Source of the DNA: Sandaracinus amylolyticus
GTDB taxonomy: Bacteria; Myxococcota_A; Polyangia; Polyangiales; Sandaracinaceae
Assembly (NCBI RefSeq): GCF_000737325.1
Contig: NZ_CP011125.1
Span: 6,572,001-6,636,000 of the forward strand
DNA length: 64,000 bases
Direction of reading: 5' to 3'
The notes below the pieces were generated by a model. The model saw only the letters and a program-made list of their open reading frames with translations. It was not told the origin of the DNA and did no database searches. Made by a program: the position numbers and the translations under genes. Each line of letters begins with the position of its first letter. The stretch's first letter is position 1. Of the stretch, positions 11,016 through 40,799 are shown piece by piece.

Positions 11016-11852
11016 TCAGAGGACGGGGTGCACGATCTCGCCCGCCGTGCCGGCGGGGACGCGCGGCGTCACGACCGCGGCGCGCACGCACGACTCGGCT
11101 GCGCTGCCGGCGAGCGGTGCCTCGAGCGCGAGCGAGACGGTGCCATCCGCGGCCCACGACGCGCGGACGGGGATCACGCCGACACCTGCACAGCGATGGA
11201 TGTCGGCACGCCGCGCATCGAGCGCGGCCCGCAGCATCTCCTCGGGCGAGCCGCCCGCGGGGGGCTCGGGGATGACGAGCCCGTCGTCGATGCTCGTGGT
11301 CGTCACGGTCGCGGTCGTGGCGGTCGGCTCCACCGGTGCGCCCGGCGGAGGCGGGACGGCGTCGGGGCTCGGCTGCGCAGCGGGCGCCACGGCGGCGACG
11401 GGCGCGCCCCACCCGGCGCCCTGCGCGGTCATCATCCACGCGCACTCGATGCCGCCACACACGAGGTCGTAGCGCGCGCTCCGGCCGCAACCGCTCGCGT
11501 TGCGCACCGTGGCCGCGGGCGCGTCGACGTGCAGCTGCGCCGCGGGGCATCCCAGCTCGGCCGCGGCGCGCAGGACCACTGGCTGGAGCGGCGACCAACC
11601 GCCGCGACGCCCGAGCGCCCACGCGTAGTCGCGGAGCTGCCCGCAGCCGTGCACCTGGTAGACGCGCTCGTTCAGGGCCGTGAGCACGAGCGCCTGCTGA
11701 TCGCAGCCGAGCTCGCGCGAGGCCTGTTGCACGAGCTGCCTCTGCTGGCGTCGACCGACCGTCGCGCTGCCGCCGCGTCGCACGCACGCGCCGAGCGCGA
11801 GCGCGGCGATCACGGCGAGGACGACGAGGACTCCGAGGCGGGCCCGCACCAT
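11016..11852 (-). CDS. lipoprotein with AgmX/PglI-like C-terminal domain
   Basis: This 278-residue protein has a hydrophobic leader ending in the lipobox LGAC at about residue 23. The middle (residues 35-130) contains two Cys-pair segments (RELGCDQQALVL...HGCGQLRDY and AAELGCPAAQLHV...SGCGRSARY) that look like an internal duplication. A Pro/Thr-rich linker follows, then a C-terminal domain (EEMLRAALDARRADIHRC, GTVSLALEAPLAGS, SCVRAAV) typical of myxobacterial AgmX/PglI-like or TonB-like energy-transducer tails. It is probably an envelope protein tethered at a membrane; its role is unknown. Confidence 0.75.
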   Translation of the reverse strand: MVRARLGVLVVLAVIAALALGACVRRGGSATVGRRQQRQLVQQASRELGCDQQALVLTALNERVYQVHGCGQLRDYAWALGRRGGWSPLQPVVLRAAAELGCPAAQLHVDAPAATVRNASGCGRSARYDLVCGGIECAWMMTAQGAGWGAPVAAVAPAAQPSPDAVPPPPGAPVEPTATTATVTTTSIDDGLVIPEPPAGGSPEEMLRAALDARRADIHRCAGVGVIPVRASWAADGTVSLALEAPLAGSAAESCVRAAVVTPRVPAGTAGEIVHPVL

Positions 11853-15307: not shown

Positions 15308-15432
15308 GCGGCGCGCAGCCTAGCCCGGGGGCTTCGCGCGTCGATCCGGCGCGCGCTGCCGACCACGACCACGACCACGACCACGTTCGAACGGCGCCGT
15401 CCCGAGTCGGCCACGCGCGAGATCGCACGCGG

Positions 15433-15635
15433 CGCAGCTCGGGGTACGGGGGCGCACCCCGCGCACCGTCCCCGACGAGCCGACCGCCGCGCGAGATCGC
15501 AAGCGGGCTGGGGCCCCGCGCGCAGCTCGGGGTCCGGGGGCGCACCCCGCGCACCGTCCCCGACGAGCCGACCGCCGCGCGAGATCGCAAGCGGGCTGGG
15601 GCCCCGCGCGCAGCTCGGGGTACGGGGGCGCACAG
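15433..15635. repeat. 88-bp tandem repeat, about 2.3 copies
   Basis: Copies begin with CGCAGCTCGGGGT at 15433, 15521 and 15609, an exact period of 88 bp. The first two copies are nearly identical; the third is cut short and runs into a palindrome (GGGGGC-GCACA-GCCCCC) near 15625-15640. The same palindrome-plus-GTACCCC arrangement, in the other orientation, occurs after the PlsB-like gene at 48369, so part of the unit belongs to a dispersed repeat family. Confidence 0.85.
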
Positions 15636-19225: not shown

Positions 19226-20107
19226 ATGCGCGGCGTGCAGCATCCTGAGCCCCTCGGGGTCGTGTCCTCCGGGGCGCGGCCCGGGCCGCTGCAGCGCGCA
19301 CCCGGCAGCACGGCGGCGCGCCAGCTCTCGCTCTCGTTCGACGCCGCGCCCGGCGGCAGCGTGCCGCCGCCTGCCGCGGTGATCGCGCCAACGCCGATCG
19401 TCGTGGCGCCGCCGAGCGATCCCGAAGAGTCCGCCCGCGCCCACATCGAGAAGGTGATGAACTCGATGCTCGGCGTGCGCGTCGAGGTCGAGCTCACGAG
19501 CAACCGCCGCACGATGATCTCGAGCGCGCGCAGCGGCATGGCGCTCCGCCTCCGCCTGCACCGCATGTTCGTCGAGGCCGACGGCGCGATCGTCGAGGCG
19601 CTCGGCCGCTACGTGAAGACCGGTGATCGCCGCGCGTCGCGACGGCTCGGCGAGTTCATCGAGGCGAAGCGCGATCGCTTCGTCGCGCCGCGCCCTCCCC
19701 GCGTGCTGCGCCCGCTCGGCGAGCACCACGACCTCCTCGCGATCTACGCGCGCATCGAGTCGACGTACTTCCCGGGCGCGCTCGCGGGCGTGACGATCAC
19801 CTGGGGCCGCCACGGCGCCGCCGCGCGCGGCCGTCGCCGCAAGCGCAGCATCCGCCTCGGCACGTACACCCACGACGAGCGCCTCATCCGCGTGCACCCC
19901 GTGCTCGATCAGCCGTGGGTCCCCGCGTTCTTCGTCGAGTACATCGTCTTCCACGAGATGCTCCACCACGTGGAGCCGGCGCGCGAAGAAGACGGCCGCA
20001 CGATCTTCCACACGCCCGAGTTCCGCCGCCGCGAGCGCGCCTACCCCGAGTACGAGCGCGCGCTCGCCTGGGAGCGCGCGAACATCGGCAAGCTGCTCAC
20101 GAGCTGA
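19226..20107 (+). CDS. SprT-like zinc metalloprotease-like protein
   Basis: This 293-residue protein has a C-terminal SprT-like domain: VEYIVFHEMLHHVEP carries the HExxH zinc motif near residue 240, and HTPEFRRRERAYPEYERA follows with the expected third His. The middle (residues 75-130) is basic and may contact nucleic acid. The first 60 residues are low-complexity. SprT/Spartan relatives cleave DNA-protein crosslinks, but bacterial SprT-like proteins are mostly uncharacterised. The start at 19226 follows a good promoter; no strong ribosome site is seen. Its stop overlaps the convergent PH-domain gene by 11 bp. Confidence 0.78.
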   Translation: MRGVQHPEPLGVVSSGARPGPLQRAPGSTAARQLSLSFDAAPGGSVPPPAAVIAPTPIVVAPPSDPEESARAHIEKVMNSMLGVRVEVELTSNRRTMISSARSGMALRLRLHRMFVEADGAIVEALGRYVKTGDRRASRRLGEFIEAKRDRFVAPRPPRVLRPLGEHHDLLAIYARIESTYFPGALAGVTITWGRHGAAARGRRRKRSIRLGTYTHDERLIRVHPVLDQPWVPAFFVEYIVFHEMLHHVEPAREEDGRTIFHTPEFRRRERAYPEYERALAWERANIGKLLTS

Positions 20108-21380
20108 GCGCGACCGACCAGAACGCCCAGCGGCCCGCCGCTGGGTCGACCGGCTTCCACTCGATGTGCACGCCCGGGTACTCGCTCGCGAGCTGGCGCA
20201 TCGCGGCGTCGCGATCGGCGTGCATCGTGTCGCCCACGCAGTCGCGCGACGCCGAGAACCGGTGCACGAACACCGCGTCGGCGTAGGTGTCGATCACCAG
20301 GACCTTCGCCGCGCCTCGTGGGATCGCCTCCCGGTCGATCCACCGCGCGAGCTCCGGCGGGAACCCGTCGAAGTGACGCTTCGAGTCGATCGGCTGCGGA
20401 AGCACGCCCACCTCGCGCGTGCGAGGCCGCGCGTCGCCCTCGAACACGCCGGCGCTGGTCGCGAGGTACGACTCGAGCGTCTCGCCGGTCGTCGGATCGA
20501 TGCGCTCGTAGTGCTGGTGCGAGCCTCCCCACGGGTCGACGAGGTCGACGGCGTGGTGCCGCCGCCGCCGCGTTCCGTCGAGCGAGGTCCACGCGCCGTG
20601 CGCGATGCGGACGAGCCCGCCGACGAACGCGGCGTTGCGCAGCGCGCGGGCTCGCTGCATCTCGCGCTTCACGACGAAGCGTGCCCGCACTCGGTACGCC
20701 AACGCGGCGACGGCGCCGATCGTCGCGACGAAGACCCCGGAGCGCCACGGCTCGGGCAGCGAGAGCGCGACGCCCGCGGCCGCGAGCACGGCGCCGCCCA
20801 GCGCGACGTCGACGGCCGACACGTCCGCGCGGCCGAACCGCGGAAGCGGGAAGAGCGTCGCGACCGCGACGGGCCCGGACGCGCGTGGTGGCTCGCGGTA
20901 CCCCGCCGGCGCGTCGCCGCGCGTCCGGCTCGGCAACGGCGCGGGCCTCGCGGGCGGGCCGAGCGCGAGCGCGAGCATCGTGCGCTCGTCGAGCGTCCAG
21001 GCGTCGAGCCCCACCCGGTCGCGAACGAACCGCAGCATCGCGTCGGGATGGGCGAACCGCCGCGGATCGAGCCCGGTGCGCGCGCCGCGGCTCGTGACGA
21101 CGACGCGGCGCCCCTCGACGGTCACCGACGTGACCTCGCTCCACGGAATGCTGCGGACGCGCCAGCCCACGTACGTGTGCAGCGCCGTGTCGTCGAGCAC
21201 CGCACGCGCGCGCAGGAAGACGACGAGCGCCGCGACCCCGCCGAGGACCAGCGCGAGCCCACCGACGACCGCGAATTCGCCCACGGTTCGGCTCGCGAGC
21301 GCGACCGTCGACGCGACGAGGAGCCCCAGCGTCGTCGTCGTGCGGAGCGCCGTGTCGAGCGAATCGACGGTCTCGGTCAC
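20097..21380 (-). CDS. membrane protein with PH-like (DUF304) domain
   Basis: This 427-residue protein starts at a GTG (21378-21380), beyond which the frame runs into repeat DNA. Two hydrophobic helices (LGLLVASTVALASR; GGLALVLGGVAALVVFL) are followed by a bacterial PH-like stretch (VGWRVRSIPWSEVTSVTVEG, RRVVVTSRG). A second hydrophobic pair (residues 195-240) precedes a cytoplasmic C-terminal domain rich in aromatic residues that I do not recognise. No enzymatic motif is seen. It is divergent from the ABC-F gene across the 43-bp repeat array. Confidence 0.7.
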   Translation of the reverse strand: MTETVDSLDTALRTTTTLGLLVASTVALASRTVGEFAVVGGLALVLGGVAALVVFLRARAVLDDTALHTYVGWRVRSIPWSEVTSVTVEGRRVVVTSRGARTGLDPRRFAHPDAMLRFVRDRVGLDAWTLDERTMLALALGPPARPAPLPSRTRGDAPAGYREPPRASGPVAVATLFPLPRFGRADVSAVDVALGGAVLAAAGVALSLPEPWRSGVFVATIGAVAALAYRVRARFVVKREMQRARALRNAAFVGGLVRIAHGAWTSLDGTRRRRHHAVDLVDPWGGSHQHYERIDPTTGETLESYLATSAGVFEGDARPRTREVGVLPQPIDSKRHFDGFPPELARWIDREAIPRGAAKVLVIDTYADAVFVHRFSASRDCVGDTMHADRDAAMRQLASEYPGVHIEWKPVDPAAGRWAFWSVALSS

Positions 21381-21489: not shown

Positions 21490-21880
21490 CCGCAGCGGGG
21501 CCGTCCGGCGTGGTTCGGACCACGGGCGACCACCGGCGAGAGGTGGTCCGTCGTCGTTCGGACCACGGGCGACCACCGGCGAGAGGTGGTCCGTCGTGGT
21601 TCGGACCACGGGCGACCACCGGCGAGAGGTGGTCCGTCGTGGTTCGAACCACCGCCGACCACCGGCGCGAGGTGGTCCGTCGTGGTTCGAACCACCGCCG
21701 ACCACCGGCGCGAGGTGGTCCCCCGTGGTCGGAACCACCGACGACCACCGGCGAGCGGTGGTCCGGCGTGGTTCGATGGCCGCCGACCCCCGGCGCGCGG
21801 CGGTCCACCGTGGTTCGGACCATCCGCGCCACCGGCGACCGGCGTTCCGCCGTGGTTCGGACCTCGACGAACGGGCAGTC
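21490..21880. repeat. 43-bp tandem repeat array, nine copies, each a potential hairpin
   Basis: The unit beginning GTTCGGACCAC or a close variant starts at 21513, 21556, 21599, 21642, 21685, 21728 and 21771 (period 43), then at 21813 and 21855 (period 42). Each unit contains nested inverted repeats: GGACCAC pairs with GTGGTCC, and ACCACC with GGTGGT around a GGCGAGA or similar loop. The left copies are almost identical and the right copies have drifted. There are no unique spacers, so it is not CRISPR. Confidence 0.92.
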
Positions 21881-21915
21881 CGAGCACGACGTCGCGCCTC
21901 GGGGGTCCTCACGAG

Positions 21916-21921
21916 CTATAT
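21916..21921 (+). promoter_or_regulatory. candidate -10 box of the ABC-F gene, near-leaderless
   Basis: CTATAT (in AGCTATATC) lies 11 bp before the GTG at 21933, the same layout as at 13783. The 43-bp array ends about 35 bp upstream of it, where a -35 box or activator site would be. Confidence 0.45.
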
Positions 21922-21932
21922 CCCGCCCCGCC

Positions 21933-23957
<2,025 letters not shown>

Positions 23958-24286
23958 GCAGAACGGCCGTGCACGAGCACGTGGCACGTGCACGTGTACG
24001 AGTCACGACGCGGCGCCTCGAGGACACGAGCGCCGCGCTCCGCGAACGACGCCGCGTCTCGGACTGCCGCGCGCCGGGAGAACGGCCGTGCACGAAGTGG
24101 CACGTGTCCGAGTCACGACGCAGCGTCTCGAGGACACGAGCGCCGCGCTCCGCGAACGACGCCGTGATCTGGCGTGGCGCTCGCTCGGACGCGGAGCGCG
24201 CCGGCTCGCGACGCGTGGGACCACGTCGTGAATCGTCCACGTGCACGTGTCACGTGTCACGTGCACGGCTGTTCCACTGCTCGCGG
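23958..24286. other. gene-free segment with direct duplication and E-box-like palindromes
   Basis: This is 329 bp between convergent genes. It contains two copies of a roughly 90-bp direct repeat (23961-24054 and 24080-24164) and a run of CACGTGCACGTG-like palindromes at 24236-24275. No gene or promoter is supported. Confidence 0.65.
23961..24164. repeat. direct repeat, two copies of about 90 bp
   Basis: Copy A (23961-24054) and copy B (24080-24164) share the start GAACGGCCGTGCACGA and the end CGCGAACGACGCCG. They differ by a small deletion in copy B within the CACGTG-rich part and a few substitutions. The 25 bp between them is unique. Confidence 0.85.
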
Positions 24287-26809
<2,523 letters not shown>

Positions 26810-36607: not shown

Positions 36608-36770
36608 CGCGCGTCGGAAGCTCCCGGAGCGCGTCGGAAGCTCCCGGAGCGCGTCGGAAGCTCCCGGAGCGCGTCGGAAGCCCTCGGCGAGCCGCGTCGG
36701 AAGCCGCCGGAGCGCGTCGGAAGCCCCCGGAGCACGTCGGAAGCCTCCGGAGCGCGTCGGAAGGGCCTCC
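36608..36770. repeat. 20-bp tandem repeat array, about eight copies
   Basis: The unit GCGTCGGAAGCTCCCGGAGC starts at 36611, 36631, 36651 and 36671 with an exact 20-bp period. It then continues with variants at about 36694, 36714, 36734 and 36754, one unit being 23 bp. The first units are identical and the later ones vary at CTCC/CGCC/CCCC. No unique spacers are seen. Confidence 0.88.
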
Positions 36771-39884: not shown

Positions 39885-40799
39885 ATGAGCTCTTGGCATC
39901 TTCGGTTCGGACTCGCGATCGCCGCGCTCGGCGCGATCGGGTGCGGCAGCACCGCAGGCTCGGGCGACGCGACGCTGCAGAAACGGGAAGCAGCAGAGGC
40001 CCACGGCGATGCAGCGCGCACGCGCGCGCTCTGCGCGCGGCTCGGGCTCGGTGCGACGTGCGACGTGTGCGCGGCCGCGGGGTGGTACGGCGACGGCGCG
40101 TGCGACACGCACTGCGCGGGGCCGGATCCCGACTGCGCGAGCGACACGTGCGGTGGGTTCGCGGGGACGGCGTGCGACGCGGGCGAGGTCTGCGTCGACG
40201 ATCCCAGCGACGACTGCGATCCCGCGCACGGCGGCGCCGACTGCATCGGGCTCTGTCGGCCCGCGCCGAGCGAGCCGACGCAGTGCGGCGGCTTCGCCGG
40301 GCTGCCCTGCCCCGAGGGCCACGTGTGTGTCGACGACACGCGCGACGACTGCGACCCCGAGCACGGCGGCGCCGACTGCCACGGCGTCTGCGAGCTCGAG
40401 CCCGGCGGCCCTGCGCAGTGCGGAGGGTTCGCGGGCTTGGCGTGCCCCGAGGGGCAGACCTGCGTCGACGATCCGAGCGACGACTGCGACCCCGAGCACG
40501 GCGGCGCCGACTGCATCGGGCTCTGCGAGACGACGCCCGGCGCGGCGTGCGGCGGCTTCGCGGGCTTCGCGTGCCCCGAGGGCTACGAGTGCGTCGACGA
40601 TCCCACCGACGACTGCGATCCCGAGCACGGCGGCGCCGACTGCATCGGCGTGTGCGAGCGCGCGAGCGAGCCGCGACACTGGTGCGGCGGGTTCGCGGGC
40701 CTCGACTGCCCGGACGGTGAGCGCTGCATCGACGATCCGAGCGACGAGTGCGATCCCGAGCACGGCGGCGCGGACTGCATCGGGATCTGCGTGCGGTGA
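39885..40799 (+). CDS. lipoprotein with five CGGFAG Cys-rich repeats
   Basis: This protein has 304 residues; AGAGAGGG precedes the ATG and the lipobox is AIGC near residue 20. After a short linker and a CDVCAAAGWYGDGACD segment, five almost identical modules of about 37-45 residues follow, each CGGFAGxxCxxGxxCVDDP then a DDCDPxHGGADC and GxC. The close similarity of the repeats at DNA level points to recent internal duplication. The pattern resembles disulfide-rich, possibly calcium-binding surface modules. No catalytic motif is seen. Confidence 0.85.
   Translation: MSSWHLRFGLAIAALGAIGCGSTAGSGDATLQKREAAEAHGDAARTRALCARLGLGATCDVCAAAGWYGDGACDTHCAGPDPDCASDTCGGFAGTACDAGEVCVDDPSDDCDPAHGGADCIGLCRPAPSEPTQCGGFAGLPCPEGHVCVDDTRDDCDPEHGGADCHGVCELEPGGPAQCGGFAGLACPEGQTCVDDPSDDCDPEHGGADCIGLCETTPGAACGGFAGFACPEGYECVDDPTDDCDPEHGGADCIGVCERASEPRHWCGGFAGLDCPDGERCIDDPSDECDPEHGGADCIGICVR

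Follow-up and report, generated by a model that had tools for sequence, protein, structure and literature searches.

A 43-bp palindromic tandem array of Sandaracinus amylolyticus, viewed as a possible member of a genus-wide class of intergenic minisatellites

Between an ABC-F ATPase gene of Sandaracinus amylolyticus and its divergently oriented neighbour, a 43-bp sequence is repeated head to tail about nine times, raising the question of what kind of element this is and whether it serves the genes beside it. The genome of strain DSM 53668 is a single contig of 10.33 Mb with 72% G+C (PMC5010890), and in a text search of the genome paper CRISPR was the only context in which repeats came up (PMC5010890). 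Here we follow the array from the window, meaning the whole 64,000-nucleotide stretch analysed (C1:6572001-6636000 of the 10,327,335-bp contig), to the rest of the genome and to a congener (G002).

Tandem Repeats Finder places the array at window positions 21503-21863 with a period of 43 bp, 8.4 copies and a score of 461, which bears out the roughly nine copies proposed in the initial annotation; the count runs from 8.4 to 9 depending on how the decayed end units are counted. Ten block-shuffled windows yielded a sole array of period 30-60, with a score of 76. The left five units (21504-21718) are nearly identical and look recently homogenised, neighbours agreeing at 41, 42, 39, 43 and 36 of 43 positions, while the right-hand units (21719-21863) are decayed and agree at 18, 14 and 13 of 43. 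Some right-hand units, at 42 bp, slip out of phase and account for part of this drop, and the better conservation of the left side, noted earlier, holds despite that slip. A coding repeat was rejected, 43 bp being no multiple of three (open frames across the array are uninformative because of the G+C content here), as was a CRISPR, the direct repeats abutting without unique spacers; on both counts the first reading of the locus was sound. A plasmid or phage origin was likewise set aside, no match being found.

The nested inverted repeats seen at first inspection are present in every good unit and resolve into two palindromes per unit. Palindrome A is GACCACC-N7-GGTGGTC, 21 bp, found by genome pattern search as GACCACCGGCGAGAGGTGGTC at 21528-21548 and again at 21571-21591, 21614-21634, 21657-21677, 21700-21720 and 21743-21763. 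Palindrome B is GTGGTTCGGACCAC, 14 bp, at 21510-21523, with copies or variants at 21553-21566, 21596-21609, 21639-21652 and 21682-21695. The centres of A and B lie 21.5 bp apart, which spaces successive sites at about two turns of the helix. The unit approximates its own reverse complement, the array matching its opposite strand at 74%, and both strands fold into one very long hairpin, far more stably than shuffled sequences (z -9.4 and -7.0). Such folding follows from self-complementarity and is therefore no evidence of an RNA by itself.

The array occupies a divergent gap, 123 bp from the start of the left gene and 70 bp from that of the ABC-F gene, as called by a G+C-frame gene caller. The ABC-F gene (21933-23957, plus strand) encodes two ABC_tran domains, an ABC_tran_Xtn and a weak ABC_tran_CTD according to a domain search. 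The left gene (20097-21380, minus strand) encodes an uncharacterised protein without a Pfam family, whose orthologue stands beside the orthologous array in the congener; at 68% amino acid identity, against about 93% at the DNA level for neighbouring genes, it is a fast-evolving protein. Alignment shows a plus-strand block immediately 5' of the ABC-F start, CACGAGCTATATCCCGCCCCGCCGTG (21910-21935), to be identical in the congener. Within it TATATC (21917-21922) could be the -10 element of an ABC-F promoter, in which case the array would fall upstream of the promoter core. A search of the divergent gap found no sigma-70 consensus pair or promoter and no intrinsic terminator with a T-run. On the far side of the ABC-F gene, the gap at 23957-24287 (329 bp, against 7 bp in the congener) has the look of an insertion or expansion and includes an internal direct repeat, about 100 bp long, in which GTGCACG is frequent.

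The same family of repeats is present at three more intergenic sites of the chromosome (C1:3222950-3223279, 5281806-5282133 and 1998071-1998328) and at three sites in the congener. Palindrome A, allowing at most one mismatch, has 19 copies in 10.3 Mb, 17 of them inside the four arrays. Judged by their flanking genes, three pairs of sites are orthologous: the window and L028, L011 and L029, and L012 and L030. The last two pairs correspond unit by unit in alignment. At the window site both species carry arrays that align poorly (about 72%) between flanking genes that are about 93% identical, and the window copy is, by this comparison, re-homogenised relative to its orthologue. Absence from the orthologous site in relatives had been named at the outset among the grounds for abandoning the array as an element of interest; the congener has an array there.

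A second locus, L010, differs more plainly between the species. Its convergent gap is 943 bp long here and contains two arrays of different sequence, whereas the orthologous gap in the congener spans 71 bp and holds only the palindromes B-A-B, 1.5 units as against about eight. The differences at L010 and at the window site therefore demonstrate expansion or contraction in place. Judged from copy number at orthologous sites, growth, shrinkage and re-homogenisation in place are shown for these arrays, and the early suggestion of a variable-number repeat holds good for the two species compared, in which both copy number and homogenisation differ (window/L028 and L010/G002). The other array at L010 (4413-4840 of that locus, about C1:3222412-3222839) has a 42-bp unit of other sequence (GGTGAACACC, CGCCGTCCACGGCG), directly adjoins the window-family array, and had no copy that we could find in the congener.

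One specific regulator acting on an operator array, with the divergent pair and the three remaining loci as its small regulon, would account for palindromes shared among four sites and found again at the orthologous positions of the congener. The position of the window array upstream of a conserved promoter-like block, and the near absence of single palindromes, are also consistent with this. However, the four sites differ in context, being divergent, convergent and co-directional; the convergent site offers no promoter to control, and some 16 sites in a row far exceed ordinary operators. We regard such a regulon as improbable; the symmetry of the sequence and its two-turn phasing would fit an operator array or nucleoid-binding site in the broader sense of the initial annotation.

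The arrays might instead act after transcription, as an RNA element or a tandem hairpin terminator. The folding described above and the closeness of related arrays to gene 3' ends would fit, but any self-complementary repeat folds strongly, and the window copy lies between divergent genes with no T-run terminator. A search of the window array against Rfam gave no family at gathering score, sub-threshold matches to plant and animal miRNA being judged chance. Within the window family no stem covariation exceeded that of shuffled alignments, and the bias of G-T versus A-C mismatches is inconsistent between orthologues, marking no consistent strand. The structured RNA first proposed thus keeps its strong folding and loses favour for the window copy, and we consider a transcribed element here quite unlikely.

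A different signal came from another family, the GAATC family. Its arrays occupy some seven sites in S. amylolyticus and some six in the congener, and all 33 genomic copies of the palindrome fall in arrays (five arrays). Across 45 units the stem displays symmetric double changes, with A-U, G-C and C-G at one pair and A-U and G-C at the next, and the cells with double changes exceed those in all shuffles and slides. The units are related, and few independent events therefore lie behind these changes. The exact patterns of the families were found in no other species among 84,980 genomes scanned, a search that diverged members would escape.

These families belong to a larger set. We surveyed spaced samples totalling about 1.0 Mb of the genome, together with 0.4 Mb from the congener, for non-coding arrays of at least 2.5 copies, setting aside simple 6-18 bp repeats. 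Their periods clustered, for the most part, at about 20-23 bp, at 41-45 bp or at 83-101 bp. Among the 14 non-coding arrays with periods of 25-80 bp (the window array included), 12 had a period of 41-45 bp (binomial P about 2e-11), and these arrays are mutually unrelated in sequence. Examples include units of 41 bp with GAATCTCGGAGATTC and CGATTCTGAAATCG, of 41 bp with GATCCG-N8-CGGATC and AGCTTGCCCAAGCT, and of 43 bp with CCCCCAGAGCGCTCTGGGGG and TTCCGGATCCCGGAA. Outside the window, 953 kb contained nine arrays, and 400 kb of the congener contained three; scaled up from these samples, the totals would be roughly 100 per genome here and roughly 80 in the congener.

Palindromes alternate 20-22 bp apart in L047, L049, L083 and L038, and also in L162, which comes from another genus of the family and holds a 41-bp array (11457-11717) of CAGTTG-N11-CAACTG and ACTGTG-N4-CACAGT spaced 20.5 bp apart. 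Over 16 arrays combined, palindromicity is significant (Fisher P 2e-7), but in the formal test only about half of them individually exceed chance; the notion that every 42-bp array is palindromic is thus false. A second palindrome at half the period was found in five of the 16 (P 0.03), a test in which the window array's second-best palindrome is an overlapping nested one, its 21.5-bp spacing referring to A and B.

The class shows a bias in its position. Convergent gaps make up 13% of intergenic sequence and hold five of 13 arrays (P 0.018). Between co-directional genes the arrays tend to lie nearer the upstream gene's 3' end (P 0.013). The window copy, in its divergent gap, is an exception to this bias. 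A special tie between the array and the ABC-F promoter, implied by its first description as part of a promoter region, finds no support in a class that is genome-wide and mostly beside gene 3' ends.

Much of this could be the work of a neutral satellite, in which slippage and palindrome-driven misalignment make and erase arrays that persist where they do least harm, the preference for about 21 and 42 bp being a by-product of how duplications form and not a function. The bias towards gene 3' ends and convergent gaps is in keeping with this, as are the genes flanking the class arrays, which share no common function, the arrays that lack palindromes, and the occurrence of arrays of about 20-22 and 42 bp in other genera of the order. 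Between the congeners, divergence of orthologous arrays is also on a par with that of alignable intergenic DNA elsewhere, and stronger conservation of the arrays than of that DNA was sought in this comparison and not found; purifying selection therefore finds no support. Pure drift, however, would not predict so narrow a range as 41-45 bp across unrelated sequences, nor the symmetric double changes of the GAATC stem, and dispersed families whose palindromes are confined to arrays require a route of spreading. On balance we find a wholly neutral origin possible, if rather unlikely.

The explanation that we prefer, with confidence somewhat short of even, assigns the window array to a genus-wide class of BIME-like intergenic palindromic minisatellites bound by a putative symmetric protein. 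Tandem units expand, contract and re-homogenise in place, and a dimeric or polymerising protein, whether a DNA-binding or a nucleoid protein, would occupy successive palindromes along one face of the helix. Such occupancy may be why symmetry and a unit length of 41-45 bp are kept. At the window site the putative protein would cover the DNA immediately 5' of the ABC-F promoter, and it might tune both divergent genes. Binding at the level of DNA is favoured because DNA, unlike RNA, would naturally impose a helical constraint, because the mismatch bias marks no single strand, and because the array lies upstream of the conserved block before the ABC-F gene. The case for a selected function is weakened by the ordinary divergence of the arrays between congeners and by the non-palindromic members of the class. 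The binding reading also has against it the lack of stem covariation beyond shuffles in the window family and the small share of arrays, five of 16, with a second palindrome at half the period. Bolder still, and in our view a long shot, is the idea that a hundred or so two-turn-phased palindrome arrays form a chromosome-organising or insulating system of Sandaracinus-type bacteria, diverse in sequence and constrained in geometry, in which each family would have its own putative protein or one putative symmetry-sensing nucleoid protein would serve them all.

Among known systems, the closest in behaviour are REPs and BIMEs, which are imperfect extragenic palindromes of 20-40 bp; A (21 bp) and B (14 bp), both non-coding, fit that description. 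The palindromes of the class are likewise short, extragenic, clustered, alternating and variable in copy number, and the class, unlike the divergent window copy, shares the bias to gene 3' ends and convergent gaps reported for REPs (PMC3733652). REPs fall into GTAG and CGTC super-families with an unpaired tag at one end (PMC3733652), whereas the window array contains GTAG nowhere and CGTC four times, at a position not conserved in the family's other arrays. REPs also reach high copy numbers, with hundreds of singlets as well as dimers spread about; here the palindromes of two families are found essentially only in tandem arrays, and many unrelated sequences have a common period of 41-45 bp. 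A search for a RAYT (Y1_Tnp, PF01797), the transposase that accompanies GTAG families, gave no match in the genome and matches in control genomes. With no Y1_Tnp, tag or singlets, membership of the REP/RAYT system was rejected, and the arrays are therefore not filed as REPs despite similar behaviour.

Bacterial intergenic minisatellites or VNTRs, for example of the MIRU type, are tandem and non-coding, vary in copy number and have decaying end units. The window array has all of these traits, its copy number varying between close relatives, and what sets it apart is that each unit carries a pair of palindromes two helical turns apart and that the period is nearly fixed across unrelated families. 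Iterons and centromere-like phased arrays (parC and similar) present many protein-size sites at helical spacing, as do the arrays described here; these, however, number in the dozens, vary in sequence and are spread over the chromosome, and no linked partition or replication genes were seen. The window array apparently represents a REP/BIME-like class outside the REP families and hitherto undescribed, no account of such arrays in myxobacteria having been found in the open-access literature searched. Should period and symmetry be under selection, the arrays would point to a protein, so far unrecognised in large myxobacterial genomes, that reads the geometry of DNA; should the arrays be neutral, they would offer a clean natural case of why bacterial minisatellites settle at two and four helical turns. 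Under either reading they are ready-made variable-number markers.

Other repeats were noted along the way. A second dispersed repeat of 83-101 bp, with the core CCGTCCGCGCGCGTCGCGCGCTCCCGTCC, occurs in two to four tandem copies that mostly start a few bases from gene 3' ends (L046 2478-2784; L051 3330; L065 10516; L067 4577 and 13422; L069 18441; L137 6924) and is present in the congener (L088 15707, L089 16005); it looks like an element of this genus akin to a terminator or a REP. The window itself contains an 88-bp repeat in a divergent gap (15432-15633; 2.3 copies, 98% identity), a 20-bp repeat (GCGCGTCGGAAGCCCCCGGA) with 7.6 copies in another divergent gap (36609-36763), and a 135-bp coding repeat (40148-40791; 4.5 copies) within the predicted gene at 40065-40799.
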